A model generated the notes under the pieces. It did no database searches. It saw only the letters and a list, made by a program, of their open reading frames with translations, and was not told where the DNA came from. The position numbers and the translations under genes are program-made. A DNA stretch of 56,850 bases. Source: Acidimicrobiaceae bacterium. Lineage in GTDB: Bacteria; Actinomycetota; Acidimicrobiia; Acidimicrobiales; Aldehydirespiratoraceae. Positions 2,418 to 16,814 of the stretch are shown piece after piece. The stretch lies in NCBI GenBank assembly GCA_009843735.1, contig VYCW01000100.1, forward strand, positions 1-56,850. Reading direction: 5' to 3'. Numbering within the stretch: position 1 is the stretch's first letter; each line of letters opens with the position of its first letter.

Positions 2418-3344
2418 TCAGTTCCAGTCTCCCGGCGACCACACCAGGGGGAACACGTCCCCGAAGGAGTCGAGGGTCTGGCCCGTCTGCGGTTCGTGCT
2501 CAGCGAGGCCGGGAGGATCCGGGACCATCTGTCCGACGCGCTTGATGTAGCGGGCCTCCGGACCGGCGAACAGGGCGGCGTACGCCCGCCGGTCGCGGTC
2601 CAACGTCACGCCCTCGGCCGTCCCGTGAAGGAGGTCTCCGTGGAACAGGATCACGTCGCCGGGCTCGTAGTCCCATCCCATGATGTCGAACGAATCCCGG
2701 TCGCGGGGCACATCCGGCGTGGGGGGCAGCGACTTGTCCATCACGACGCTGCGGTAGGCGAATCCGGCGCCCCCCTTCTCGTAGACGCCGCGCTTGCGGG
2801 CCAGCGCCATCCGCAGTGCGTTCTCCTCATCCGACATGTCGGGGTCGCGGCCCACCATCGGGCGGTAGGTGACGTTCCACCGGTGCGATCCCCGGACCAC
2901 CTCGAGGCTGGCCCGGCGGGGTACCGGGTCGGGCGATGCCCAGGCTCGCACCAGGTCGGTGCCCTCCACGTTGTGGTAGCTGGTGTCCTGATGCCACGGG
3001 GTGGGAGCCATGGGGCCTGCCCTCCGGAAGAACATCTGGTCCATGTAGAAGCGCACCGGGCCGGCCACGACGGAGCCCACGAGACCACCGACGGGAGATT
3101 CGTTGGCGAAACGGCGCAGGCTGGGTGACCGGGCCGCGAGCAGCTGGTCCGCCCTCACGGTCGCGCCCTGGGCCACCACCTCACTGGACATGTGGTCGCG
3201 TTCGGCGAAGCACTCCTCCAGGCCGTCGGCGATCAGGCTCACCCACTCGGGTGCCAGCACCCCGGTCAGCAGCACGGCTCCGTCGCGGTGGAATGCCGCG
3301 ATCTCGGCATCGGTCACCCCTCGGATGGGGGCAGCCGAAGTCAT
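2418..3344 (-). CDS. PhyH-family Fe(II)/2-oxoglutarate-dependent dioxygenase
   Basis: A 308-residue protein of the phytanoyl-CoA dioxygenase family, which hydroxylates substrates with O2 and 2-oxoglutarate. The iron ligands fit H118-x-D120 (context PWHQDTSYH) and distal H240 (context GDLLHGT), with an arginine pair at 252-253 suited to bind 2-oxoglutarate. The frame is open further upstream, but the ATG at 3344 is preferred: AGGAGG lies just upstream and the ATG overlaps the stop of the phosphopantetheinyl transferase gene (ATGA), implying translational coupling. That coupling is the best argument that this oxygenase belongs to the PKS pathway, probably hydroxylating the acyl product. Exact substrate unknown. 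Confidence 0.93.
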   Translation of the reverse strand: MTSAAPIRGVTDAEIAAFHRDGAVLLTGVLAPEWVSLIADGLEECFAERDHMSSEVVAQGATVRADQLLAARSPSLRRFANESPVGGLVGSVVAGPVRFYMDQMFFRRAGPMAPTPWHQDTSYHNVEGTDLVRAWASPDPVPRRASLEVVRGSHRWNVTYRPMVGRDPDMSDEENALRMALARKRGVYEKGGAGFAYRSVVMDKSLPPTPDVPRDRDSFDIMGWDYEPGDVILFHGDLLHGTAEGVTLDRDRRAYAALFAGPEARYIKRVGQMVPDPPGLAEHEPQTGQTLDSFGDVFPLVWSPGDWN

Positions 3345-4051
3345 GGCCCTTCCTCCTCTTGGGCGACCGCGGCCGCGAACCGATTCGTGCCGATGTTGGT
3401 GAGTCTCCATGCCACCTCAGGCATGCCCGGCATCCACAACACGCCGCTGCGGGCGCCGTTGCGAATGTCCGGAGGGATCTCGAAACTCGAGACGTCCAAC
3501 GAGAGGCCCAGCCCGTGAGCCTTGCTGAGCGCTTCCTTCAGAGTCCACAGATCGAGGAACACGTCGAGCTTCTGGCGCCCGCTCGCCGCCATCACATCGG
3601 CCCGCTCACGGGGACCGAGGACCGCATCGATCAGCACGTCGAGATTGCGTTGCGCGGCCCGTTCCTCGACATCAACACCCACCCGTCCCCGCGGCGCCAT
3701 TGCGATCAGGCCGTGCTGCCCACTGTGGCTGACGTTGAATGCGATGGGAGCCTCAAGTCCGTCGACCGTGGCGAAGGGCTTGCCGTGCTCGGAAGCGCCG
3801 AGGGCGAGCTGCTGGTTGCGGCAGTCGAGCGTGCCGCAGAGCAGCGAGCGCAGCGATGCCCGGCACAGGACGTACCGGCGTCTGGCGCCGGTGTGCTGGA
3901 AGCGGAGGGCTCGGCGACGCTCCTCGCCGTCGAGCCAGGTCCAGGCCTCCTGCTCTTTGGTCTCGCCGGGCACCAGGTCGACGTGCGTCACCAGGACATC
4001 GTCAAGCTGGGTGAACGGCACCCACCAGTCGGTGGCTAGAGCGGGAGCCAT
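3341..4051 (-). CDS. 4'-phosphopantetheinyl transferase, Sfp type
   Basis: A 236-residue enzyme that moves the phosphopantetheine arm of CoA onto carrier-protein serines, activating PKS, NRPS or fatty-acid carrier domains. Family motifs are complete: FNVSHS (105-110), the Mg-binding GVDVE (D127, E129), and W169-T-x-K172-E173 with K177 in the WTLKEALSKAHG segment. Length matches the Sfp class rather than the short AcpS class. It sits directly below the free acyl carrier protein gene (78 bp) and is coupled by a 4-bp overlap to the PhyH gene. Presence inside the cluster suggests a dedicated activator for the PKS ACP domain (S2523) and the free ACP (S40). Confidence 0.96.
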   Translation of the reverse strand: MAPALATDWWVPFTQLDDVLVTHVDLVPGETKEQEAWTWLDGEERRRALRFQHTGARRRYVLCRASLRSLLCGTLDCRNQQLALGASEHGKPFATVDGLEAPIAFNVSHSGQHGLIAMAPRGRVGVDVEERAAQRNLDVLIDAVLGPRERADVMAASGRQKLDVFLDLWTLKEALSKAHGLGLSLDVSSFEIPPDIRNGARSGVLWMPGMPEVAWRLTNIGTNRFAAAVAQEEEGP

Positions 4052-4114: not shown

Positions 4115-4133
4115 CTGAACCGAGTGTGTTCAG
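4115..4133 (-). terminator. Hairpin at the acyl carrier protein stop codon
   Basis: CTGAAC and GTTCAG form a 6-bp stem with a 7-nt loop that overlaps the stop codon of the free acyl carrier protein gene. A second self-complementary stretch (CCGCGCGG, 4103-4110) follows on the minus strand. There is no U tract, so this could be a weak terminator, an attenuator or an mRNA-stabilising stem between the ACP and transferase genes. Confidence 0.3.
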
Positions 4134-4372
4134 CTGTGGGAGTCGAGGTATGCGATCAGGTCGCTCGGCGTCAGCAGCTCGGCGAACTCCTCGGCCGAGA
4201 TGTCCACGCCGAACTCCTCGCAGACCAGTCTCCAGAACGCCACCACGTCGGTGGAGCTCACACCCGCATCGATGATGTTGAGATCGGGCGTGAGCGGCTG
4301 GCCCGCAGACCTGCCCTCGATCTGGAGATTGGCGTCGACGAGGGCTCGAATTCGTTCTTCGGTTGAGGCCAT
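4130..4372 (-). CDS. Free-standing acyl carrier protein
   Basis: An 80-residue acidic, helical protein with the size and layout of an acyl carrier protein. The usual DSL attachment motif is replaced by SST in the context AGVSSTDVV, with S40 the expected phosphopantetheine site; hydrophobic helix-2 residues (VVAFWRLV) follow. A GAAAGG ribosome-binding site lies upstream of the ATG at 4372. It is 77 bp below the PKS and just above the phosphopantetheinyl transferase. Since the PKS ends in a KS with no AT and no ACP of its own, this discrete ACP is the obvious partner for that KS, as donor of an extender or acceptor of the chain. That role is inference. Confidence 0.88.
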   Translation of the reverse strand: MASTEERIRALVDANLQIEGRSAGQPLTPDLNIIDAGVSSTDVVAFWRLVCEEFGVDISAEEFAELLTPSDLIAYLDSHS

Positions 4373-4449: not shown

Positions 4450-7400
4450 TCAATTCGACTGCAACGGCTGCACCCAGTGCCGTCGACGCTGGAACGGGTA
4501 TCCCGGCAGCGAGATCCGGCGCGGTGTTTCGTCTTGGAACAGCGCGCCGAAGGTCACGTCGAGCCCGGCCTCGTAGTCGGCTGCTGCGTCCGTGACCGCG
4601 CCGTGTCCGGGAGATCCGCCCGATCCCGGTGCTTGCCCCCCGTTCCCGTCCACCACTGCTTGCAACCCGGCGCGCAGCGACTCGACGTCGTCGAACACCA
4701 CCGCGGCCCGCTCGGCGAAGTGGGTGCGCCCCACGCTCGCAGTCCACGCCACGTCGCGCAGCAACGCTGCCGGGTCCTCGCCCTCCTCGGAGAGCTCCGA
4801 GACCCGTTCGCCGAGCCAGGATCCGAACTGCACGGCAAGCTCGCGCAGAGCCTGCTCGGACTGCGCCGATAGGGGAAGCATCCGGGTTCGGCTCACCGGC
4901 TGTGAACTGGTGCCGGATCCGGCTGTGTCCGCCTGGCGGGTCCCGATGTCATGCCCCTCGAGAACCAGGTGGGCGTTGGCGCCTGAGATCGCGAACGAGT
5001 TGACCGCCGCCAGCCGGGGCCGTCCACCTGTCTCGGGCCAGTCCATCGCTTCGGTGGTCACCCGCACGGGCAGCCGCTCCCAGTCGATCTGCTCGCTCGG
5101 CTCGCTCAGGTGCAGATGCTTGGGGATCTTGCCCCGGTTCATGGCCAGGACCGTCTTGATGAGGCCGGCCACCGCCGAGGCGCACTCCAGGTGGCCGATG
5201 TTGGTTTTGACCGAGCCGACCAGCAGAGGCCGGTCATCGTCGCGGCCGGTGCCGTACACGGTGGCGGCCGCGTTCATCTCGACCGCGTCGCCGAACACCG
5301 ATCCCGGCCCGTGCGCCTCGAGATAGTCGACATCGGCCGGGACTCGCGCCGCTCGGTCCAGCGCCTGCTTCATCGCCTGCATCTGTGCGGGGCCGTTGGG
5401 CTGGGTGAGGCCCAGGCCGGTGGCGTTCTGGTTGACCGCCGTGCCCCGCACCACCGCCCAGATGCGGTCGCCGTCGGCGATGGCGTCCTCCAGCCGCTTG
5501 AGTGCCACCATGCCGCAGCCCTCGCCCCGGATGTAGCCGTCGGCGGCCGCGTCGAAGGCCCGGCACTGCCCGCTGGCCGACAGCATTCCCGTCTCGGCCA
5601 GGAACGTCGTGATGGACGGGGACAGGACTGCGTTGGCCCCGCCGGCCAGAGCCAGGTCCACTTCGTCCTGCTGCAGCGCCGACACCGCATGGTGGACGGC
5701 GACCAGTGACGATGCGCACGCCAGGTCGAAGGGCACGGCCGGGCCGGCCAGGCCCAGCGTGAATGCGATGCGCCCGACCGCCACGCTGGCGGTGGTGCCG
5801 AAATAGCTGTCGCCCCGGCCGGCGGCCGCGATGACCCTGCGGTACTCGCTGCTGCCGCCGATACCGGCGTACACCCCGGTGCGGCTCCCCTTGAGGCCGG
5901 CGGGGTCGATGGCGGCGTCCTCCAGTGACTGCCAGGCCGTCTCCAGGAGCATGCGCTGCTGGGGGTCCATCATGCGGGCCTCGATCGGCCTGATCCGGAA
6001 GAAGCCCGCGTCGAACTGGTCGATGCCCTCGATATAGGCGCCGACCCGGCTGGCGGGATCCGGGTTGGCTGGGTCTCCCGAGGCTCCGTTCCAGGGGCCG
6101 GGATCCCGACGTCCGTCCGTGACCGCGTTCTCGCCCGCCTCCAACTGGCGCCAGAAGCTGCTGAGGTCCGGAGCGCCGGGGAACCGGCAGGCCATCCCCA
6201 CGATGGCGATCCCGTCGTTGCCGGTCGCACTCGACGGCACAACGGCTGCCGCGACCTTCGGCGCCGAAGGCTCTGCCACGTCGGCCTGCTGCTGGTCCCG
6301 CTGGTCCTGGCCCGGCTGAGCCGCGGCTTCCAGGACCGGCCCGCTGGGGCCGGTGCCGGCGGGCGCTTGTATGGCGAAGCGGGCGCCATCGGTGCCCTCG
6401 GGTGCTTCGATGCCGCCCGACTCGGCGAGCTCGGACGCCAGGTAGGCGGCGAGGCTCTGAACGCTCGGATAGTCGAACACCACGGTGTTGCCGGCGGTGT
6501 ACTCGCCCGCGAGGCCCCGGTTGATGCGGTTCCTCAACTCCACCGCCATCAGGGAGTCCATTCCCAGGTCGGCGAACTCGACCGACGGCGCCGGACGGTC
6601 CGGCAGGCGCATCACCGCCTGCAGCTCTCCCTGCAGGAACCCGGCCAGGATCTGCTCGTGCTCCGTCGCGGGCGACGCGCCCAACTCCGACAGCAGGTCG
6701 GCCTGAGAGTCTTGGCGGCCTCCAGCCTGGCTCGCCACCGCGGCCAGCAGGTCCTCCAGCAGCGGTGAACGGTTCTCGTAGTCCTCGGCCACCATCTGCC
6801 AGTCCACGGCGGCCACCATGGGCGCGGTCGTGTCCTGGCGGACGAGGTGGTCGAAGGCCCTCAAGCCGTGCTGCGGGGTGATCCAGCCCGTACCGGCGGC
6901 CTCGAGCTGTGCGGCTATCCGCTCGCGTTGCTCCTCGGCCTCGCCGAGTCCCGACCATGCTCCCCAGGCGATGGACTGCCCGGCCAGCCCACGCGAGCGC
7001 CGGTGGGCTGCGAGCACGTCGAGGAAGGCGTTGGCTGCGGCGTGGTTGGCTTGGCCGGGGTTGCCCAGCACGCCGGCCACGCTGGAGAACAGCACGAACA
7101 TGTCGAGATCGCGGTCCTCGGTGGCTCGGTGCAGGTGCCAGGCTCCGAGCACCTTGGGCCACAGCACCCTCTCGAAGCTCTCCCAGCTCTGGTTGGTCAG
7201 GGCCGCGTCCGACAGGACTCCCACGCTGTGGATCACGCCCGCGAGCGGAGGCAGCGTGTCGGAGATGCGGGCCAGCATGGCGTCGACGGCGTCGGCGTCG
7301 GTCATGTCGGCCAACTCGACGCTTACCGTCGCCCCTCGCTCTCGCAGCTCGGCTATGGCTGCGGCGGCTTCGGGGTCCGGGTCGCGCCGGCCGTTGAGCA

Positions 7401-10400
7401 CGATGGCGCCCGCACCACGGTCGAACAGCCATCCGGCCACCGTGCAGCCGATGCCGCCCAGGCCGCCCGTCACCAGGTAGGTCCGGTCGCCGCGCAGCTG
7501 CCCGGTCTCGAGCGGAGAGGCCGCGAACACGATCTTGCCGATGTGGCGGGCGGCTCGCATGAACTTCATCCCGGGGCCGACCTCGGCCAGCGACCACCTG
7601 GTGTGAGTCAGCGGGGCCAGCTCCCCGGCGTCCAGGCGCTGCATCACCCGCCTGAGGGCGTTGCCCGGCTGGGCGGGGTCGTGCTCCTTCAGCACGTCCA
7701 GCTCCAGGATCCAGTAGCCCGCATCGGGTCGGGCCTGTCTCATCTCGCTGTGGCTCAGGATGTCCACCCTGGCCAGCTCCACGAACCTGCCCTCCCGGGC
7801 CAGGCACGACAGGCTGGTGTCGATAAAGCCGGGACCGGTGAGGCTGTTGAGCACCACGTCGACGCCTTCACCCCCGGTGGCCTCGAGGATCTGCTCGCCG
7901 AAGGCCGTCGATCGGCTGTCGAATACGTGCTCGACGCCCAGCGAGCGCAGGTAGGCCTGCTTCGGAGCGCTGGCGGTGGCGAACACCTCGGCTCCGGCAG
8001 CCTGGGCCAGCTGGACGGCAGCCAGGCCGACCCCGCCCGCGGCCGCGTGGATGAGCACCCGCTCGCCTGCGGCCAGTTCCGCCAGATCGAACGACAGCGC
8101 GGCCGACACGAACGCGGTGGGCATCGTCGCCAGTGCCGTCACACCGATGTTCGGCGGCGCCGGAGCCACCATCTCCTCGCGCGTCACCGCCTCCGCCGAG
8201 AATGTGCCGAAGGCAAGGCCGACCACCCGGTCGCCGTCGGCGACCGTGCTCACTCCGGGCCCGATCTCCAGCACCCGGCCGCAGAACTCGCCGCCTAGCA
8301 GGCCCTCATCGATCACGCCGAGCGATCGGAACATGTCCCAGAAGTTGAGTCCGGTTGCCTCGACAGCCACCCGGACCTCGCCCGGCTCCAGCGATCGGGC
8401 CGGCGCGGCCTCCACCCGCAGCTCCTCCAGCGCTCCGGCCTCGTCGGGCTCGACCATCCAAGCCGACTCGCCGGCCGGCTCGGGCAGATGCAGCCGTTCG
8501 GTGCCTTCACCGGCACGGACCAGGCGGGCCGCTTGGCGGTGCCCTCCCCGGTAGGCGATGTGCGTCTCGGAATCGGGGTGCAGCAACTCGTCTGAGATGC
8601 TCTGCGGCAGTTCAGCAACGGCCGGGTCCAGATCGATCATCCTCGGCTGGAGATGGGAGGCCTCGCGGGCCGCGACCTTCCCGAAACCCCACAGCACCGC
8701 GCCGGCGACGCCCTCGACGGATTCGTGCTCGAGCACCTGGCCGCCACGAGTGACGAACCACACGCCCTTGGCGGCGGTCGCGTCGGCGTCGGCTAGGCCC
8801 TGCATCAGCGCCAGCGCGCTGGCGGCGGCCCGCCTCACCGCGGTCGCCATCTGCCCGGTGGTGGCCTGCACACCGTGGGTGTCGGTCGCCGCGAGGTGCA
8901 CGACCCCGTTCAGAGGGAGGCCGGGGGGAAGGGTCCCGAGCAGTGCCTGCCACTCGGTCCGGTTCTCCATGTCGATCGCCGCGGCAACAACTCCGTCGGG
9001 CACCGAGACCGGGTCGGGCGACGACTCATCGCTGGCCATTACCACTGTCTGGTTGAGGGCCTCCAGCCGCTCGGCCAGTTCGGCGGCCAACCCGCCCCGG
9101 TCGGCGGCCAGGACCCACGCTCCCGGCCGTTCGGCCACCTCGGCCGGACCCTGGGCGAGGATCACGCCCCGGTCGGGCTCGGCGTCAGGATCGGTCTCAT
9201 CCGCGCCCAGGACCTCGACCCCCTCGAAGCCGGCGTCGTCGAGCGCCTGCCGCCAGACCGCGGGACTGGCCAGTGCATGGTGGGGACGGCAGGCGTCGGC
9301 GAAGCGCCACCATCCGTCCAGCTGCCCGAAGGTCAGGTCCAGCCAGCCCTGCCCTCTCAGGTTCTCCAGAGCCACCAGATGGCCCGACGGCGCCAGCAGA
9401 TCCCGGCAGTGCTCGAGCGTTTCGGACAGGTAGCGGGTGGCGTGCAGCACATTGGACGCGATGACCAGGTCGTAGGCGTGGTAGTCGAAGCCCTGGGAGC
9501 CCGGGTCGTGCTCGATGTCGAGCACCCGGTACTCGATAGACGCCTCCCGCCCGCCGAAACGGCTCTCGGCCTCGGCGAAGAAGCCCGCGGAGATATCGGT
9601 GTAGGTGTAGTCGAAGCGTCCCTCAGGCAGTTCGGGCAGCACCGCGGCGGTGGCCGATCCCGTGCCCGCGCCGACCTCGATCACCCGCAGCCTCCGCCCG
9701 TCCGGCAACTGCTCGAGCAGTGCTGCCACCGCGTCGGCCAGCATCTGGTTGGCCGCCCTCGCCACCGGTGCCTTCAGGTAGAGGTCGGCCGCGGTGGGCT
9801 CGCCGCTGCTGAACAGCAGCGTCAACGGGTCGGCATCGCCCACCAGCACATCGGCCAGGGCTCCGGCGCTGCGCTGGAACAGCCCGATCTCGGTCGAGCC
9901 GTGCTCGTAGCGCTCCGCCATTTCCGAACCGAGCTCCCCGGGGTCGTCGGGCAGCATCTGGGTGCCGTGATCCTCGGAGCCCGGCACGACGACGAAGGTG
10001 TCACCGTCGGCTTCGACCACACCGGCTCGGGCCAGCATCTCGAAGAGCCGGCGGAACAATCGACTGTGCTCGGGCAGCACCCCGAGCCGCTCGCGTAGCC
10101 CATCAGGCTCCACCGACTCGCCCGCGGTGCGCTGCCAGCCCAGGCGCTCCAGCGTCATCAGCGCATAGGACCATGACAGCCGCTCGAGGTCGTTCAGCAG
10201 GTCGGCCCGGCTGGTCTTGTCGACGCCCGCGGCCTCCAGGTACGCCGCGAAGGTGTCCGAGCGGGCTGCCACCGCGGCCGGGCTGGCAAGGAAGCCGGCC
10301 CCGACGACGCCGGGTGGCAGCGGCCGGTCCCGCCACACCACCTCGTACAGCAGGTCGTCGAGACTCTCGGTCGCCGATAGCAGGGCGGCCCGCGTGGCCC

Positions 10401-13400
10401 GCTTGACCGTGTAGCCGTCCAGCCTGCCCAGCTCCGTGCCGTCGGACGCGTAGAAGCGCAGGTCGGCGGCTATGACCTCGCGGGGCGCGGCCGCCTGGTC
10501 GTCTCCGCTGGCGCCCCCCGGCTCGCGCAGGCGGGCATGGCAGACCAGCCGATCGGGAAGCGGTCCGTGAAGCACCAGCCGCTCCCACCCGAACGGCAGG
10601 TAGGGAGTGCCGTCCTCGTCACCGGAGGCTCGTCGGGCCGCGGCCATCACCTGGAAGCAGCCGTCCAGCAGCAGCGGATGCAGCTCAGCGCCGCCGCGGT
10701 CCATCCCGTCGGGCAGAGCGACCTCGCCCAGAGCCCCGCCGTCGCGGGCCCGCAGCGAGGCCAGTGTGCGGAAGGACCCCCCGAGGTCGACGCCGGCTGC
10801 GGCCCGGGCCCGGTAGAACCCGGCGACGTCGACGGGGTCGAGGCCGGCTCTCAGGTCCTCCAGGTCGGCACGCTCGCTACCCGAAGGCGAGCCGGTGCTC
10901 GCTGACACCATGCCCTGGGCGTGCAGCGTCCAGCCGTCCTCGGCGTCGGACCGGCTGAACACTTCGAACTGGATGGGACTCCTGGCGTCGGAGCCGTCGA
11001 GCACGAGCTGCACGCTGCGCCCCGACACGTCGGCGGCGTCGGCGGGATCGTGCTCGTCGAAGACCATCGGGCTATGGAGCTGGAAGTCCTCCACGACGAG
11101 CTCCCCGTTGCAGCCGCCCAAGCTGCCGGCCGCGGCGGCCATCGAGCCGTACAGCGCGCCCGGGGTGATGACCCGCCCGTACACCCGGTGGTCGTCGAGC
11201 CAAGCCGGGTCGGTCACGAACACCTCGGTGGCATAAAGGGTCTCGCCTCGCGGCGAGTCGTGGCGGGTGCCCAGCAGCCGGTGGTCCGAGGCCTGCCTCC
11301 TCCGGCGTGGCTGCTCCACCCAGTGACGGTGGTGCTGGAACCGGTAGCCGGGAAGAGCGACCCGGCGTCGGGCCTCGCCCGCGTACAGGCCCTCGAACGA
11401 CACGTCGAGCCCGGCGCCGTAGGCGGCTGCGACCGCGTCGAGGAATCCGCTGCCGTCGGCCGGGTCGGGCTTGCTGGCCGAGGGCTGGCGCATGCTGGAG
11501 GCGATGACCGGTTCGGCCGAGCCGGCCCCCTGCGGCCAGGCAGTCGCGACGGTGGGGCCGAGGACGGTGTCGGGACCAATCTCGATCACTGCGTCCACGC
11601 CGATGGTGGCCAACGTCTCCACGCAGGTCCGGAAGGCCACCGGCGCCCGGGCCTGGCTGCGCCAGTACCGACCGTCAAGGGTCGCGCCCACCTCCAGCGC
11701 CTCGCCGGTCATGCTGCTCACGTAAGTGACCTGTGGGGCTGCTGTCTCGATTCCGTCGACCACGGTCTCGAGGTCATCGAGTGCCGGCTCCACCAGCGCG
11801 CTGTGGTAGGCGGGGCTCCTGCGCAGCCGGCGCACCCACGCCTTCTCGGACTCGAAGCGCTTCAGCAGGCTGTCGACCTTGTCCGCTGGGCCACTGATCA
11901 CCTGGTGCATCCCGTTGTCGGCCGCCACGCTCACCGGAGAGCCCTCGGTCGAGGCGTTGAGCTTGTCGACCGCGGCCGCCACCCGCTCCGGGGTTGCGAA
12001 CACCGCAGCCATGGCCCCGTCCTCGCCCAGCGCGCCCATGAGCGCGCCCCGGGCGGCCGCGAACCGCAGGCCGTCCTCCAGGCTGAACGCCCCGGCGGCC
12101 TGCGCAGCCGCGATCTCTCCCAGGCTGTGGCCGACGACCACATCGGGCCGGACGCCGATGCTCGACCACAGCGCGGTCAAGGCGCACTCGATGGCATAGA
12201 TGCACGGCTGCGTCCAGGCCGGGTCGTCCAGCTCCTCCTCGGAGCCGAACGTGACGTCGAGCAGCGACGCCCCACGCTCCTGCTGGAGCACCTCGTCGCA
12301 GCGGTCGAGGACGGCTCGGAAGACGGGCTCGCTCTCGTAGAGGGCGCGTCCCATGCCCACCCACTGGCTGGCCTGGCCGGTGTAGGCGAAGGCGACTGCG
12401 GTCGCGGCCCTGCCCGTCGGCAGGTCACCACCTCCGGCGACTGCCTCCAGCGACTCCCGCAACGAAGCCTGGTCGGTGAACACCACTCCGGCGCGATGGG
12501 TCATGTGGCTCCGTCCGATCCCTGCGGTCCAGGCAGTGTCAGACAGCAGTTCGTCGGCGTCCTTGTCGCCGGACGCGCCCTTGAAGCGCTCCTCGAGCCA
12601 CTCCAGGTAGCCCGCGGCCGTCTCTCGCAGGGACTCGCCGGTCTTGGCCGACAGGGGGAGCAGGCGGGCGGGGCGGTCTGCGGGCGTGGGGGCTGCCGCC
12701 GGCTCCGGAGGTGCCGCCGGTGGGCTGATCGCTACCCGGACGGGAGGCCCGGAGACCCACTGCCTCGGATCGGATGCTCCGGTTGACGCATGCGGCGTTC
12801 CGTAACCCTCCACCACGACGTGGGCGTTGGTGCCTGACCAGCCGAACCCGCTCACACCGGCCAGCGGCTGGCGGTCGGGACGGAGAGGCCAGGGGGTCGG
12901 CTCCGAGGTGACCTGCAGTGGGAGCCGGTCCCAACCGATCTCCGGATTCGGGTCCTGGAAGTTGAGGTGTTTGGGGATTACCCCCCGATTCATGGCCAGC
13001 ATCACCTTGATCAGCGCGGCCGCGCCGGCCGCCGACTCCAGGTGGCCGACGTTGGTCTTGACCGACCCGATCAGCAGCGGCCGGTCCGGATCCCGCCCCG
13101 TGCTGTAGGCCGTGCCGGTGGCTTCGGCCTCGATCGGGTCGCCGACCGGCGTACCGGTGCCGTGAGCCTCCACATAGTCGACTTCCGACGGCTGCACGCC
13201 GGCCCAGGCCAGCGCGTCGGCGATGACCCGCTCCTGGGCCTCGCCGTTCGGAACGGTGAGCCCCTGGCTGGCGCCGTCCTGGTTGAGGGCTGTCCCCCGG
13301 ATCACGCCCCAGATGCGGTCTCCGTCGGCCTCGGCTTCGGTTAGACGCTTCAGGACCAGCAGCCCGCATCCCTCGCCCCGCACGTAGCCGTTGGCGGCCT

Positions 13401-14121
13401 CGTCGAAGGTCTTGCAGCGCCCGTCGGGGGCCAGCATCCCGGCGTTGCCCCGCAACTCGAACAGCCGGCCGGACAGGATGGCGTGGACCCCGCCGGCCAG
13501 GGCCAGGTCGGCCTCGCCCCGCTGAAGTCCGGCCACCGCCTGATGCACGGCCGCCAGCGACGACGAGCACGCGGTGTCGACGGCCAGAGCCGGTCCCTGC
13601 AACCCGAGCGCGAAGGCGACCCGTCCGATGGCGGTGTTGAAGGAGGTCCCGGCTACGGAGTAGAGGCTGGCCGCCGGCTCGGCAGTGTCGTTGCATTCCA
13701 GCACCAGGGTCCGGTACTCGTTGTTGCTGATACCCGCGTAAACCCCGGTCCGGCTGCCCTTGAGCCCGTCAGGGTCGATGCCGGCATCCTCCAGCGCGTG
13801 CCAGCTCACCTCCAGCATCAGCCGCTGCTGTGGGTCCAGCAGCTGTGCCTCCACCGGCGATATCCGGAAGAAGGCGGCGTCGAACTGGTCGATCTCGTCG
13901 ATGAAGGCCCCGAACCGGCAGGCGTCGTTCTGGGTCCTGGCGTCGGTGAACAGCTCGCCCACCCGGCCCACACCCGAGCCAGGGACGCCCTCGGTTACCG
14001 CACTCGAGCCTGTCTCGAGCAGCCGCCAGAAGGCTCCGACGTCCGGCGCGCCCGGGAACCGGCACGCCATCCCCACCACCGCGATGGGCGAACGATCCGC
14101 CCCCTGCGCCGGGTCAGGCAA
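4450..14121 (-). CDS. Type I polyketide synthase: KS-AT-DH-MT-ER-KR-ACP-KS with AT-deleted end
   Basis: A 3223-residue PKS. Domains in order: KS1 about 10-440 (C185 in DTACSSS, H320, H360); AT 575-870 (S666 in GHSLGE; PAYHS where malonyl-type ATs read HAFHS); DH 940-1235 (H978-x3-G-x4-P987, D1153-x3-Q1157); C-methyltransferase about 1380-1650 (EVGAGTGSA at 1482); structural KR half 1660-1890; ER 1890-2200 (HAAAGGVG, 2025); KR 2205-2440 (GGLGGIG, 2219; S2347, but H2360 where the catalytic Tyr is expected); ACP 2490-2565 (S2523 in GMDSL); KS2 2637-3060 (C2802, H2937, H2977); then the KS-AT linker joined directly to the post-AT linker and stop. No thioesterase. Such a module normally makes a reduced, methyl-branched chain, possibly iteratively. 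The start is a TTG at 14121, overlapping the upstream hydrolase by 8 bp, just before the KS. Confidence 0.96.
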   Translation of the reverse strand: MPDPAQGADRSPIAVVGMACRFPGAPDVGAFWRLLETGSSAVTEGVPGSGVGRVGELFTDARTQNDACRFGAFIDEIDQFDAAFFRISPVEAQLLDPQQRLMLEVSWHALEDAGIDPDGLKGSRTGVYAGISNNEYRTLVLECNDTAEPAASLYSVAGTSFNTAIGRVAFALGLQGPALAVDTACSSSLAAVHQAVAGLQRGEADLALAGGVHAILSGRLFELRGNAGMLAPDGRCKTFDEAANGYVRGEGCGLLVLKRLTEAEADGDRIWGVIRGTALNQDGASQGLTVPNGEAQERVIADALAWAGVQPSEVDYVEAHGTGTPVGDPIEAEATGTAYSTGRDPDRPLLIGSVKTNVGHLESAAGAAALIKVMLAMNRGVIPKHLNFQDPNPEIGWDRLPLQVTSEPTPWPLRPDRQPLAGVSGFGWSGTNAHVVVEGYGTPHASTGASDPRQWVSGPPVRVAISPPAAPPEPAAAPTPADRPARLLPLSAKTGESLRETAAGYLEWLEERFKGASGDKDADELLSDTAWTAGIGRSHMTHRAGVVFTDQASLRESLEAVAGGGDLPTGRAATAVAFAYTGQASQWVGMGRALYESEPVFRAVLDRCDEVLQQERGASLLDVTFGSEEELDDPAWTQPCIYAIECALTALWSSIGVRPDVVVGHSLGEIAAAQAAGAFSLEDGLRFAAARGALMGALGEDGAMAAVFATPERVAAAVDKLNASTEGSPVSVAADNGMHQVISGPADKVDSLLKRFESEKAWVRRLRRSPAYHSALVEPALDDLETVVDGIETAAPQVTYVSSMTGEALEVGATLDGRYWRSQARAPVAFRTCVETLATIGVDAVIEIGPDTVLGPTVATAWPQGAGSAEPVIASSMRQPSASKPDPADGSGFLDAVAAAYGAGLDVSFEGLYAGEARRRVALPGYRFQHHRHWVEQPRRRRQASDHRLLGTRHDSPRGETLYATEVFVTDPAWLDDHRVYGRVITPGALYGSMAAAAGSLGGCNGELVVEDFQLHSPMVFDEHDPADAADVSGRSVQLVLDGSDARSPIQFEVFSRSDAEDGWTLHAQGMVSASTGSPSGSERADLEDLRAGLDPVDVAGFYRARAAAGVDLGGSFRTLASLRARDGGALGEVALPDGMDRGGAELHPLLLDGCFQVMAAARRASGDEDGTPYLPFGWERLVLHGPLPDRLVCHARLREPGGASGDDQAAAPREVIAADLRFYASDGTELGRLDGYTVKRATRAALLSATESLDDLLYEVVWRDRPLPPGVVGAGFLASPAAVAARSDTFAAYLEAAGVDKTSRADLLNDLERLSWSYALMTLERLGWQRTAGESVEPDGLRERLGVLPEHSRLFRRLFEMLARAGVVEADGDTFVVVPGSEDHGTQMLPDDPGELGSEMAERYEHGSTEIGLFQRSAGALADVLVGDADPLTLLFSSGEPTAADLYLKAPVARAANQMLADAVAALLEQLPDGRRLRVIEVGAGTGSATAAVLPELPEGRFDYTYTDISAGFFAEAESRFGGREASIEYRVLDIEHDPGSQGFDYHAYDLVIASNVLHATRYLSETLEHCRDLLAPSGHLVALENLRGQGWLDLTFGQLDGWWRFADACRPHHALASPAVWRQALDDAGFEGVEVLGADETDPDAEPDRGVILAQGPAEVAERPGAWVLAADRGGLAAELAERLEALNQTVVMASDESSPDPVSVPDGVVAAAIDMENRTEWQALLGTLPPGLPLNGVVHLAATDTHGVQATTGQMATAVRRAAASALALMQGLADADATAAKGVWFVTRGGQVLEHESVEGVAGAVLWGFGKVAAREASHLQPRMIDLDPAVAELPQSISDELLHPDSETHIAYRGGHRQAARLVRAGEGTERLHLPEPAGESAWMVEPDEAGALEELRVEAAPARSLEPGEVRVAVEATGLNFWDMFRSLGVIDEGLLGGEFCGRVLEIGPGVSTVADGDRVVGLAFGTFSAEAVTREEMVAPAPPNIGVTALATMPTAFVSAALSFDLAELAAGERVLIHAAAGGVGLAAVQLAQAAGAEVFATASAPKQAYLRSLGVEHVFDSRSTAFGEQILEATGGEGVDVVLNSLTGPGFIDTSLSCLAREGRFVELARVDILSHSEMRQARPDAGYWILELDVLKEHDPAQPGNALRRVMQRLDAGELAPLTHTRWSLAEVGPGMKFMRAARHIGKIVFAASPLETGQLRGDRTYLVTGGLGGIGCTVAGWLFDRGAGAIVLNGRRDPDPEAAAAIAELRERGATVSVELADMTDADAVDAMLARISDTLPPLAGVIHSVGVLSDAALTNQSWESFERVLWPKVLGAWHLHRATEDRDLDMFVLFSSVAGVLGNPGQANHAAANAFLDVLAAHRRSRGLAGQSIAWGAWSGLGEAEEQRERIAAQLEAAGTGWITPQHGLRAFDHLVRQDTTAPMVAAVDWQMVAEDYENRSPLLEDLLAAVASQAGGRQDSQADLLSELGASPATEHEQILAGFLQGELQAVMRLPDRPAPSVEFADLGMDSLMAVELRNRINRGLAGEYTAGNTVVFDYPSVQSLAAYLASELAESGGIEAPEGTDGARFAIQAPAGTGPSGPVLEAAAQPGQDQRDQQQADVAEPSAPKVAAAVVPSSATGNDGIAIVGMACRFPGAPDLSSFWRQLEAGENAVTDGRRDPGPWNGASGDPANPDPASRVGAYIEGIDQFDAGFFRIRPIEARMMDPQQRMLLETAWQSLEDAAIDPAGLKGSRTGVYAGIGGSSEYRRVIAAAGRGDSYFGTTASVAVGRIAFTLGLAGPAVPFDLACASSLVAVHHAVSALQQDEVDLALAGGANAVLSPSITTFLAETGMLSASGQCRAFDAAADGYIRGEGCGMVALKRLEDAIADGDRIWAVVRGTAVNQNATGLGLTQPNGPAQMQAMKQALDRAARVPADVDYLEAHGPGSVFGDAVEMNAAATVYGTGRDDDRPLLVGSVKTNIGHLECASAVAGLIKTVLAMNRGKIPKHLHLSEPSEQIDWERLPVRVTTEAMDWPETGGRPRLAAVNSFAISGANAHLVLEGHDIGTRQADTAGSGTSSQPVSRTRMLPLSAQSEQALRELAVQFGSWLGERVSELSEEGEDPAALLRDVAWTASVGRTHFAERAAVVFDDVESLRAGLQAVVDGNGGQAPGSGGSPGHGAVTDAAADYEAGLDVTFGALFQDETPRRISLPGYPFQRRRHWVQPLQSN

Positions 14122-15019
14122 GGCCGATCGGCTCCAGGAAGTCCCGCATGACCTTGATGCACTTCTCGGGCTTCTCCAACTGGAGGAAATGGGTCGAGTC
14201 GGGCAGGAAGTCGTAGTCCACGGTCAGCATCTCGCCGAAGTCCAGCGTCGGGAGGTACGAGTAGGGAAGGGTCGGGTCGGCTCCGATCACCTTGGTGGGG
14301 CATTGAAGCGCGTCCAGGTCGACCAACACCGCGAAGATCCGTGCGTGGGCCATGATCTGGGCCTCGTGTTCCCGCGGGAAGCGGAGTTCGTAGCCGGAGC
14401 CGTCCGCGGACTCGCGCAGCGTGGTTCTCGCCAGCAGGTCGATGACGCCTGGGACGGTATGCCGGAACGCGGGCAGGAAGGCGAGCAGGTCGGTGTAAGC
14501 CTTCAGCGTCTTGAATTGGGATGTGCGCTGCTCGGCCATCCTGGCGGCTCGCTTGATGGCCTCGTCGAACTCGTTGCGGGTCTCCACCGGCTTGCGCAGG
14601 GGAGGGTCGAACAGGACGAGGGCCGAGAAACGGCTCCCTTCGGTGGTCGACAGCAGCGGCGCCAGCGACGAGACCGAATGAAACACGCCCACCTGTGGCT
14701 TGGTGCCGTAGTGGGTGTCGATTGCGTCAAGCACCCGGTCATGGTCATTGATGAACGTGGGGATGGTGTGGTCCGCCAGGGGACTGACCGCGTTCCAGCC
14801 GTGGCTTCTCAGGTCGTAGACGACGACGTCGAACTCCTCGGTCAGCATGGACCAGTACGGGTAGTAGAGGTCGATGGCCAAGCCGATTCCGTGGGACATG
14901 ATGAGTCGTGTGCCGTCCGGGTTGCCGTGCCGGCGCAGGATGATGGTGGCGCCGCCCTCCACCGGGACCTCGTATGTGGACCGAGGCTCGGGCACGGTCC
15001 AGACCGCGTCTGACGTCAT
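14114..15019 (-). CDS. Alpha/beta-hydrolase fold protein, possible release or editing hydrolase of the PKS
   Basis: A 301-residue alpha/beta hydrolase. Seen: oxyanion-loop HG (MSHGIG, about 42-46), the RSHGWN turn, nucleophile-elbow candidate S115 in FHSVSS, and a terminal catalytic-histidine segment (DSTHFLQLEKPE). The elbow reads S-x-S where the family has G-x-S-x-G, so one glycine is replaced by serine. The start is taken as the ATG at 15019, where the conserved protein begins; upstream codons in the same frame look like non-coding shadow. Its stop overlaps the PKS start by 8 bp, so the two are translationally coupled. As the PKS lacks a thioesterase, this is the best candidate for hydrolytic release or type-II editing; an unrelated esterase role remains possible. 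Confidence 0.85.
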   Translation of the reverse strand: MTSDAVWTVPEPRSTYEVPVEGGATIILRRHGNPDGTRLIMSHGIGLAIDLYYPYWSMLTEEFDVVVYDLRSHGWNAVSPLADHTIPTFINDHDRVLDAIDTHYGTKPQVGVFHSVSSLAPLLSTTEGSRFSALVLFDPPLRKPVETRNEFDEAIKRAARMAEQRTSQFKTLKAYTDLLAFLPAFRHTVPGVIDLLARTTLRESADGSGYELRFPREHEAQIMAHARIFAVLVDLDALQCPTKVIGADPTLPYSYLPTLDFGEMLTVDYDFLPDSTHFLQLEKPEKCIKVMRDFLEPIGLA

Positions 15020-15062
15020 CGCAGCGATCGTAACTGGTGGGGGGCCATGTGCTTTGAGCGGG

Positions 15063-16814
15063 CTAGCCCGCCGCTCTGACTTGCACTGTGACCACGTCCA
15101 GCCCGTGGAACTTCTGATGGTGCACGGACGAGGCGTAGTGACGCAGAAGCCTGAGCGGGATCTCACCCTCCTCCACGCCAGCGGTGCTCTGGGATTCCTC
15201 ACTGAGGTGGGCCAGCCGGTCCTCCAGGTTCTCTTCATCGAAGACGGCTAGGAACTCCATCTCGACCGTCGCGCCGCTGTGACGGGCCGCCAGAATCAGG
15301 CTGGGCGCGTCGGCTTCCGAACGGTCATCGCCCTGCTGGAGAAGGCTCATCAGCGTCTCCTCGCCGGCGGAGCGCAGGCGCTGCGCGGCCGGGTCATCCC
15401 ATCCGATATCGGCCGCGAACCCTCGTAGGAACTCGTCGACCTCGGTCACAGACGACGGGTGAAGGTCGACCCTCAGACGTCCTCGCCGGCTCCGGCTGGT
15501 CAGTTCCACGAACCGGGTCATCACCACCGCGGCGACCGCTCCGGCCAGCATTCCGTTGTCTATCAGCGGACCCCACGTCTCTCCCAGCAGGTCTGCGCCG
15601 ATGGTCTGGTTGTCCAGACCCACCCCCACGGAGAAGGCGATCCCAACCGTGAGGGCCTTGCCCCGGTCGAGCCCGTCGGCCACAACCGTCTGTATGCCGC
15701 TCACGAAGAGCACCCCTATGGCGGTGACCAGGTAGGCGCCCATGACCGGGCTGGGGATGCTGAGTAGCACCGCCGTCAACTTGGGCAGCAGGGAGAGCAC
15801 GACCATCGCAGCCCCGATGGCGTAACCGACACGCCGGGCGGCGACGCCGGTGAGATTGACCAGCAGTGGACTGGACGACGAATAGACCGATGTCGGCGGT
15901 GTTCCGGCCAGGCCCGAGAGAAGGATGCCGACGCCGTTGGTGTTGAGCGATCCCTGCACCAGCCGGTAATCGGTCACCCGCGGCTTGCGCCACGAGACCT
16001 GCTGGATGGCGATGTAGTCCCCGATGTTCTTGACGCTGCCGACCAGGGCGATCACCACGAAGGCGGGCAGCAGGGCCCAGAACTCGACGCCCGGGGTCAG
16101 GTCGATCCCCGGGAACCCGCCCTCTGGAAGGCCGACCCAGCGGGCGTCGCGAATGGGTTGGACCTCGTACGCGCCGAACATGACAGCCACCGCGCAGCCG
16201 GCCGCTATGCCCATGAGCGGCGACCAGACGCGCCAGGCCCCGGAGACCCGCAGGGCCAAAGCCACAACTGCGGCGAGAGTCACCAGAGCTACGACGGGGC
16301 CGGCTGCGCCGGGGGCGGACTCGGGCACCTCGCTCACCCGGCCGAGCGCGACGGGCAGGATCGTGGCCGCCAGCAGCATGAGCACGGTGCCCGACACGAC
16401 CGGGGTGATGATCCGGCGCAGCAGCGGCAGCCAGACGGACAGCAAAAGGTAGAACAGCGCCGCCGCCACGGTGAGGCTGGCCAGCAGGGCCGGCCCGCCC
16501 GCGGCCAGCGCCAGCACCGAGACGGCGACATAGTTGGGCGTCGGTCCCATGATCAGGATGTGGCCCGCGCCGAACCGCCCGAAGCGGCCTGCCTGCAGCG
16601 CGGTGAGGCCTCCGGCGATGACTAGGGAGGCGAACACCGCCCAGGTGAGGTAGCTGTCATCCTGGCCGCCCGCCCGGGCGGTGATGGCCACGATCAGCAC
16701 GATCGTCGCCAGCACAAGCATGACCCCCTGCAACCCGACGCCCAGCGCGATCAGCGGAGGGCAACGCTCGTCGGGCTCGTAGCGGATGGCGTCGTCGGCT
16801 CCAGGGGTGCTCAT
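15063..16814 (-). CDS. NCS2-type nucleobase/xanthine-uracil permease with C-terminal GHKL/anti-sigma-like domain
   Basis: A 583-residue protein. Residues 20-455 hold many hydrophobic segments and the nucleobase:cation symporter-2 layout, including a PPTSVYSSS segment where relatives read PTTxYxEN and a SGIQTV segment after the last long helix pair. Expected role is uptake of a purine, pyrimidine or similar heterocycle across the inner membrane. Residues 456-583 are not a transporter tail: they resemble an RsbW/SpoIIAB-like ATPase fold, with a helix like an N-box (AGEETLMSLL) and an end like the family's last helix and strand (LRLLRHYASSV...VVTVQV). The usual DxGxG box is not recognisable. It lies 43 bp above the hydrolase-PKS pair. 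Substrate and the role of the extra domain are unknown. Confidence 0.85.
   Translation of the reverse strand: MSTPGADDAIRYEPDERCPPLIALGVGLQGVMLVLATIVLIVAITARAGGQDDSYLTWAVFASLVIAGGLTALQAGRFGRFGAGHILIMGPTPNYVAVSVLALAAGGPALLASLTVAAALFYLLLSVWLPLLRRIITPVVSGTVLMLLAATILPVALGRVSEVPESAPGAAGPVVALVTLAAVVALALRVSGAWRVWSPLMGIAAGCAVAVMFGAYEVQPIRDARWVGLPEGGFPGIDLTPGVEFWALLPAFVVIALVGSVKNIGDYIAIQQVSWRKPRVTDYRLVQGSLNTNGVGILLSGLAGTPPTSVYSSSSPLLVNLTGVAARRVGYAIGAAMVVLSLLPKLTAVLLSIPSPVMGAYLVTAIGVLFVSGIQTVVADGLDRGKALTVGIAFSVGVGLDNQTIGADLLGETWGPLIDNGMLAGAVAAVVMTRFVELTSRSRRGRLRVDLHPSSVTEVDEFLRGFAADIGWDDPAAQRLRSAGEETLMSLLQQGDDRSEADAPSLILAARHSGATVEMEFLAVFDEENLEDRLAHLSEESQSTAGVEEGEIPLRLLRHYASSVHHQKFHGLDVVTVQVRAAG

Follow-up and report, generated by a model that had tools for sequence, protein, structure and literature searches.

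Small polyketide synthases (PKSs) of the Sup type, described as monomodular and abundant in sponges, have been proposed to make branched fatty acids (PMC4245539), with methyl-branched fatty acids as the product class put forward (PMC4245539, PMC9864124), and Sup clusters are described from MAGs of several phyla, independent of taxonomy (PMC9426513). A permease named SupE is listed from a published clone (PMC3908369, Table 1), and the same source gives SwfA as KS-AT-DH-ER-KR-ACP, without a methyltransferase (MT) or a second ketosynthase (KS) and followed by swfB and swfC (PMC3908369). In trans-AT PKSs, a KS is followed by the KS-AT linker and then by the post-AT linker, with the acyltransferase (AT) absent between them (PMC11907408, PMC5089993). 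Algal PKSs are described in which the AT is displaced in trans and terminal KSs have altered HGTGT motifs; module duplication and AT loss have been proposed for them, in an order that is called unclear (PMC4661987). Here we analyse a PKS gene that ends in an AT-less KS, located in a stretch of 56,850 nucleotides (the window, to which all coordinates refer unless another locus is named), and compare it with its relatives and with these systems.

Organization of the PKS gene

The PKS reading frame, as called and translated, occupies positions 4450-14121 of the minus strand and encodes a type I PKS of 3223 aa from a TTG start. Pfam and NCBIfam profiles gave the order KS-AT-DH-MT-ER-KR-ACP and, behind it, another KS together with its C-terminal extension and a KS-AT linker; they detected only one acyltransferase stretch in the whole protein. 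The first module, like all features described here on the minus strand, comprises KS1 (12802-14094, residues about 10-440, with C185, H320 and H360), AT1 (11482-12399, residues about 575-880, with S666 in GHSLGE and H773), a DH domain with the HxxxGxxxxP motif (10357-11214, residues about 970-1255), a C-methyltransferase domain (9142-10224, residues about 1300-1660), an enoyl reductase domain (ER; 7522-8454, residues about 1890-2200), a ketoreductase domain (KR; 6922-7494, residues about 2210-2400) and ACP1 with the motif LGMDSL (6427-6654, residues about 2490-2565). The TTG start overlaps the end of the adjoining alpha/beta hydrolase gene by 8 nt (14114-14121), which suggests translational coupling.

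The second ketosynthase, KS2 (4942-6213, residues 2637-3060), is intact, with the full catalytic set of C2802, H2937 (in HGPGS) and H2977, residue for residue as an earlier note on this DNA had stated. It is followed by a KS-AT linker (4654-4869, residues about 3085-3156), a Gly/Ser/Pro-rich join of about 28 residues at the AT2 gap (4570-4653, residues about 3157-3184) and a post-AT linker (RRISLPGYPFQRRRHWV; 4453-4569, residues 3185-3223). The same note had claimed that AT2 was removed in frame between two kept linkers, and the alignment of the tail with module 1 agrees: the KS-AT linker matches at 40% over 122 columns (E 5e-20) and the post-AT linker, as a piece of its own, at 53% over 47 columns (E 6e-14). 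A 40-residue piece of the post-AT linker scored 43.9 bits versus a best score of 19.6 in 100 shuffles, and the PDB sequence matches 6mhk, 4wky and 4ope span the KS2 tail. Structural modelling of the AT-less KS2 region gave low confidence (mean pLDDT 54), and the model was left unused. The layout had thus been read correctly, but the note had missed that trans-AT KSs usually look like this, with a KS-AT linker and a post-AT linker in the absence of an AT.

Relatives of the window PKS

Genomes were compared in a set of 61, the window's own plus 60 relatives, and a single scan of genome contigs with the KS2 alignment gave 524 relatives, of which the best 80 were kept; the frequencies below are therefore those of the nearest KS2 relatives and not of the whole family. 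Four loci on the same contigs as congener stretches (L046, L047, L049, L060) and an unrelated PKS (L042) were left out of the counts, and KS2 is present only in part in L041. The best 80 of 524 and the congeners together provided 87 non-duplicate loci with a usable KS2. For counts of AT2, six were set aside, five at a contig end (L040, L064, L068, L119, L122) and one with a stop codon (L070), leaving 81.

The titles of the best 80 of 524 loci name at least eight phyla, with the host not stated, and the groups named are Acidimicrobiia, Chloroflexi, Gamma- and Alphaproteobacteria, Acidobacteria, Gemmatimonadetes, Nitrospira, Latescibacteria and Rhodothermales. From their bin names, we take many of these relatives to come from sponge metagenomes; the name Candidatus Poriferisocius, for example, points to a sponge. 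The bacterium of the window is probably a sponge symbiont as well. Among the best 80 and the congeners, the order KS1-AT1-DH-MT-ER-KR-ACP-KS2(-AT2) was found wherever the frame was long enough, and the relatives form one PKS family.

Nine further complete PKSs with the same AT-less end were found among the 61 genomes, seven from congeners and two from separate species of a second genus in the same family; in two further congeners (G007, G013) the PKS is cut by a contig end. One of the seven congeners (G001, locus L037) has lost the KS-AT linker too, so that KS2 runs straight into what is left of the post-AT linker, about its last 20 residues.

Several loci depart from an unbroken gene. In L053, L055, L061, L072, L095 and L121, the PKS is broken into two or three frames, through decay or sequence errors, and two of these six loci (L061, L121) are AT-less. 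L070 has an in-frame stop just after its position 11998 (plus strand), inside the AT2 relic, and the frame resumes behind it, as a mutation or a sequence error would leave it. Most of the PKS cluster is lost in two congeners, G003 (L043, about 7800-9200) and G004 (L044, about 9000-9550), where short scraps of the hydrolase, KS2, PPTase or PhyH genes are left between the permease and the amidase.

The KR of the window reads GQANHAAAN. At the position of the usual catalytic Tyr, His (GQ.NH) stands in all of the 82 sequences with listed motifs, out of 83 family KRs from the best 80 of 524 and the congeners, and the 12 motif types among these 82 are without Tyr throughout.

Decay and repeated excision of AT2

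The removal of AT2 reported in the earlier note holds, but it is not peculiar to the window gene. Among the best 80 of 524 relatives and the congeners, AT2 is absent in 18 of the 81 non-duplicate members with a readable end, and the remaining 63 end in an AT2 relic and a post-AT linker. Aligned to AT1, all 63 relics lack the catalytic His column; positions 160-199, which include this His, are missing from every one of them, and most are also without much of positions 124-159. The missing stretch presumably corresponds to the small ferredoxin-like subdomain of the FabD fold. The catalytic Ser column reads Gly in 55 relics, Asp in 5, and Ala, Asn and Ser in one each, so that the Ser is lost in 62 of 63 and kept in L111, whereas AT1 has GHSxGE in all 71 non-duplicate members in which it was compared (L042 left out; best 80 of 524 and congeners). 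Because AT2 is a dead relic in all 63 of the AT2-bearing relatives examined, its excision is best seen as the completion of a decay that had begun long before. The deletion of the His region is common to all of them and may go back to one event before the family spread, which suggests that AT2 was already dead in the common ancestor.

The AT2 relics evolve faster than the KS2s to which they are attached, with dN/dS of 0.21-0.53 versus 0.05-0.16 and the higher value on AT2 in 13 of 13 close pairs; dN/dS of the relics is below 1 throughout. The KS-AT linker region by KS2 evolves as fast as AT2 (0.20-0.68), and fast change is thus by itself no mark of AT2 death. In a structural model of KS2 with an AT2 relic, only the linker and AT2 part was confident, and the PDB entries matched by this model were ordinary KS-AT didomains that superposed poorly on it (TM about 0.4).

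A single excision, with all 18 AT-less members in one clade, was rejected (p-AU 7e-47), as was one clade of the 15 AT-less members formed by the Acidimicrobiia plus L050 (p-AU 4e-4). The KS2 tree requires six changes of AT2 state, or four without L061 and L121, the two AT-less members with broken PKS frames; the MT-ER-KR tree (70 members, with L048 and L061 outside) requires four, or three without L121, and unites the 13 Acidimicrobiia-type members in one clade (91). L052 and L061 share a near-identical AT-less junction and gene order, yet their KS2s are distant in the KS2 tree (p-AU 3e-4), and KS2 may have recombined with its tail there. These trees point to at least three independent excisions of AT2 (Acidimicrobiia, L050, L052); the exact number is unsure and may be as high as six.

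Constraint and kinship of KS2

Among the best 80 of 524 relatives and the congeners, the nucleophilic Cys of KS2 and the His of the NIGH motif are kept in 87 of 87 sequences, and the His of the HGTGT motif (HGxGx) in 83 of 87. Loss of this last His marks a KS0, and it is present in the window KS2 (H2937). The first Thr of HGTGT is found in only 14 of 87 KS2s versus 72 of 72 KS1s from the same set of best 80 and congeners; this widespread loss of the Thr and the four KS2s without the His indicate that some KS2s are probably unable to condense. In these four (L065, L067, L083, L123), the His is replaced by Asn or Gln while the Cys and the other His are kept, and they look non-elongating. KS2 is under purifying selection (dN/dS 0.05-0.18 in 19 pairs), with values as low as those of the MT and AT1.

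With 12 KS1s as outgroup, all KS2s fall into a single clade of their own (SH-aLRT 100). A reference KS tree was calculated with 46 KSs from seven plasmid loci and relatives, typed only by whether an AT follows, and in it a single clade (100) unites KS1 with KS2. This clade lies inside a 47-row set (90) that otherwise comprises eight KSs with an AT, one that lacks it and one at the end of its protein; AT-less Janthinobacterium KSs form a clade immediately outside this set (the larger set has 97), and the other AT-less groups are further off. KS2 is nearer to cis-AT than to trans-AT ketosynthases, and its kinship with KS1 makes KS2-AT2 best read as a copy of KS1-AT1. Descent of KS2 from trans-AT PKSs is without support in the KS tree, in which KS1 and KS2 fall outside the main AT-less clades.

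The discrete ACP and neighbouring genes

As the earlier note had indicated, a gene for a free acyl carrier protein lies 77 nt past the PKS stop (4130-4372, 80 aa, GVSSTD). It is followed by genes for a 4'-phosphopantetheinyl transferase (PPTase; 3341-4051), a PhyH-type oxygenase, an amidase and a Rieske oxygenase; upstream of the PKS are an alpha/beta hydrolase (14114-15238, with the true start probably inside the reading frame) and a nucleobase-type permease (Xan_ur_permease; 15063-16814). Homologues of the PPTase, the hydrolase and the permease were found in 36, 64 and 47, respectively, of the 87 related loci from the best 80 of 524 and the congeners.

When both sides and either strand were searched in the best 80 of 524 and the congeners, a candidate free ACP was found in 70 of 88 locus stretches and in 56 of the 60 loci with at least 1500 nt of flank on each side; contig ends cut most of the 18 stretches in which none was seen, and among the 60 well-flanked loci none was seen in four. 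All 70 candidates have the attachment Ser. The frequency among loci with adequate flanks supports the proposal in the earlier note that the free ACP is the likely partner of KS2. A search of the downstream side only gave 35 of 88, and the ACP is directly downstream in 34 of the 80 loci with room for it, lying elsewhere upstream or on the opposite strand. For the 18 AT-less members, the ACP is downstream in 15 and upstream in L052 and L061, and none was seen in L050, whose contig starts inside the PKS.

The ACP and the PPTase follow the PKS in all seven complete congeners, and the permease and hydrolase lie upstream in eight of nine; in the ninth (G009), neither was found in the 2 kb upstream. 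The second genus keeps the order PKS then ACP, and the other neighbours of the window were not found there. A search of the genome with PF00698 returned only AT1 and a stand-alone frame of FabD size near a fatty-acid KS; with the genome at 84.6% completeness, a dedicated trans-AT may have escaped this search.

A possible role for KS2

The explanation that best accounts for these observations, and that we consider reasonably probable, is that KS2 is a working ketosynthase that forms, with the discrete ACP, an AT-independent terminal half-module. The KS-AT pair of an iterative-type cis-AT PKS would have been duplicated to give KS2-AT2, and AT2 would have lost its function early: the relatives examined are without its catalytic His region and most of its small-subdomain region, and the Ser, too, is gone in nearly all of them. 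Full excision in several lineages, including that of the window, would then have left the two linkers that pack on the KS. The KS2 Cys would take the fully reduced, C-methylated chain from ACP1, and KS2 would place it on the conserved free ACP, most likely with one last decarboxylative condensation on malonyl-ACP and less likely by plain hand-over for release. The malonyl group would be loaded on the ACP in trans, by AT1 or by FabD of the cell. We favour this condensation with trans-charged malonyl-ACP, to which we give an even chance, because the His of decarboxylation is kept in 83 of 87 KS2s.

The same conservation, maintained despite deep divergence, weighs against a non-elongating, KS0-like gate, in which KS2 would only move the finished chain off ACP1 and onto the free ACP and the conserved alpha/beta hydrolase would then release or transfer it. 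Such a gate would need no extender unit, which would make AT2 useless, and it would be consistent with the death of AT2 in 63 of 63 relics, with a hydrolase homologue in 64 of the 87 loci from the best 80 of 524 and the congeners, and with the four KS2s that have lost the HGTGT His but kept the Cys and the other His. For these four, plain transfer is likely; as an account of KS2 in general, the gate is the main alternative, credible but rather doubtful. That KS2 is a catalytically idle remnant, serving at most as a dimerization or structural element, appears very improbable: its AT partner has decayed, little of the cluster is left in two congeners (G003, G004) and the PKS frame is broken in six related loci, but the catalytic residues are conserved and dN/dS is as low as for the MT and AT1. 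Finally, although the genome around the window is a draft of 140 contigs, a collapsed assembly, frameshift or recent pseudogene can be dismissed with near certainty as the source of the AT-less end, since nine other complete PKSs have the same in-frame layout, in separate congener genomes and in the second genus, and AT-less ends also occur in Chloroflexi and Gammaproteobacteria loci among the best 80 of 524 relatives.

Comparison with known systems

The layout of an AT-less KS is in itself known, since it is the textbook trans-AT layout (PMC11907408). Against the literature searched, what appears new is a cis-AT, iterative-type PKS family spanning many phyla, in which AT2 is dead in the members examined and has been dropped more than once while KS2 and a discrete ACP are kept. 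We lean slightly towards regarding this as a second, independent bacterial origin of AT-less logic, in which a KS-AT pair was duplicated, the His and small subdomain were lost in an ancestral deletion and the KS came to be fed in trans via a dedicated ACP, with stages ranging from a relic that keeps the Ser (L111) to repeated clean excision. The family also offers natural examples of how much of an AT can vanish with its KS still under selection.

Like SwfA, the window PKS is a single-module PKS with reducing domains and probably sponge-associated; it differs from SwfA by its MT and second KS. The family fits the published descriptions of the sponge Sup PKSs and probably belongs to them. Its domains, an MT and a full reductive set, suit the synthesis of methyl-branched fatty acids, and a permease adjoins the PKS here, a permease (SupE) being named from a published clone as well. 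However, the Sup PKSs are called monomodular in the literature, whereas the PKSs analysed here carry another KS whose AT is dead or missing, and the descriptions of Sup PKSs covered by the literature searched mention neither a second KS nor a dead AT. If this family is Sup, its conserved terminal KS, with an ACP of its own and no working AT, would change the expected product by one step or provide a new release route.

The end of the window KS2, with both linkers and no AT between them, resembles trans-AT PKSs. It differs from them in that KS2 is nearer to cis-AT KSs and lies behind a full cis-AT module, and in that no stand-alone AT was detected within the cluster or close to it in this genome, which is 84.6% complete. 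With the algal PKSs, the family shares a proposed duplication with AT loss and a terminal KS with an altered HGTGT motif; here, by contrast, the enzymes are bacterial and of iterative type, the duplication seems to have come first and the decayed ATs are still visible. The family thereby suggests an order of steps towards an AT-less module, from duplication through inactivation to excision, an order described as unclear for the algal PKSs (PMC4661987).
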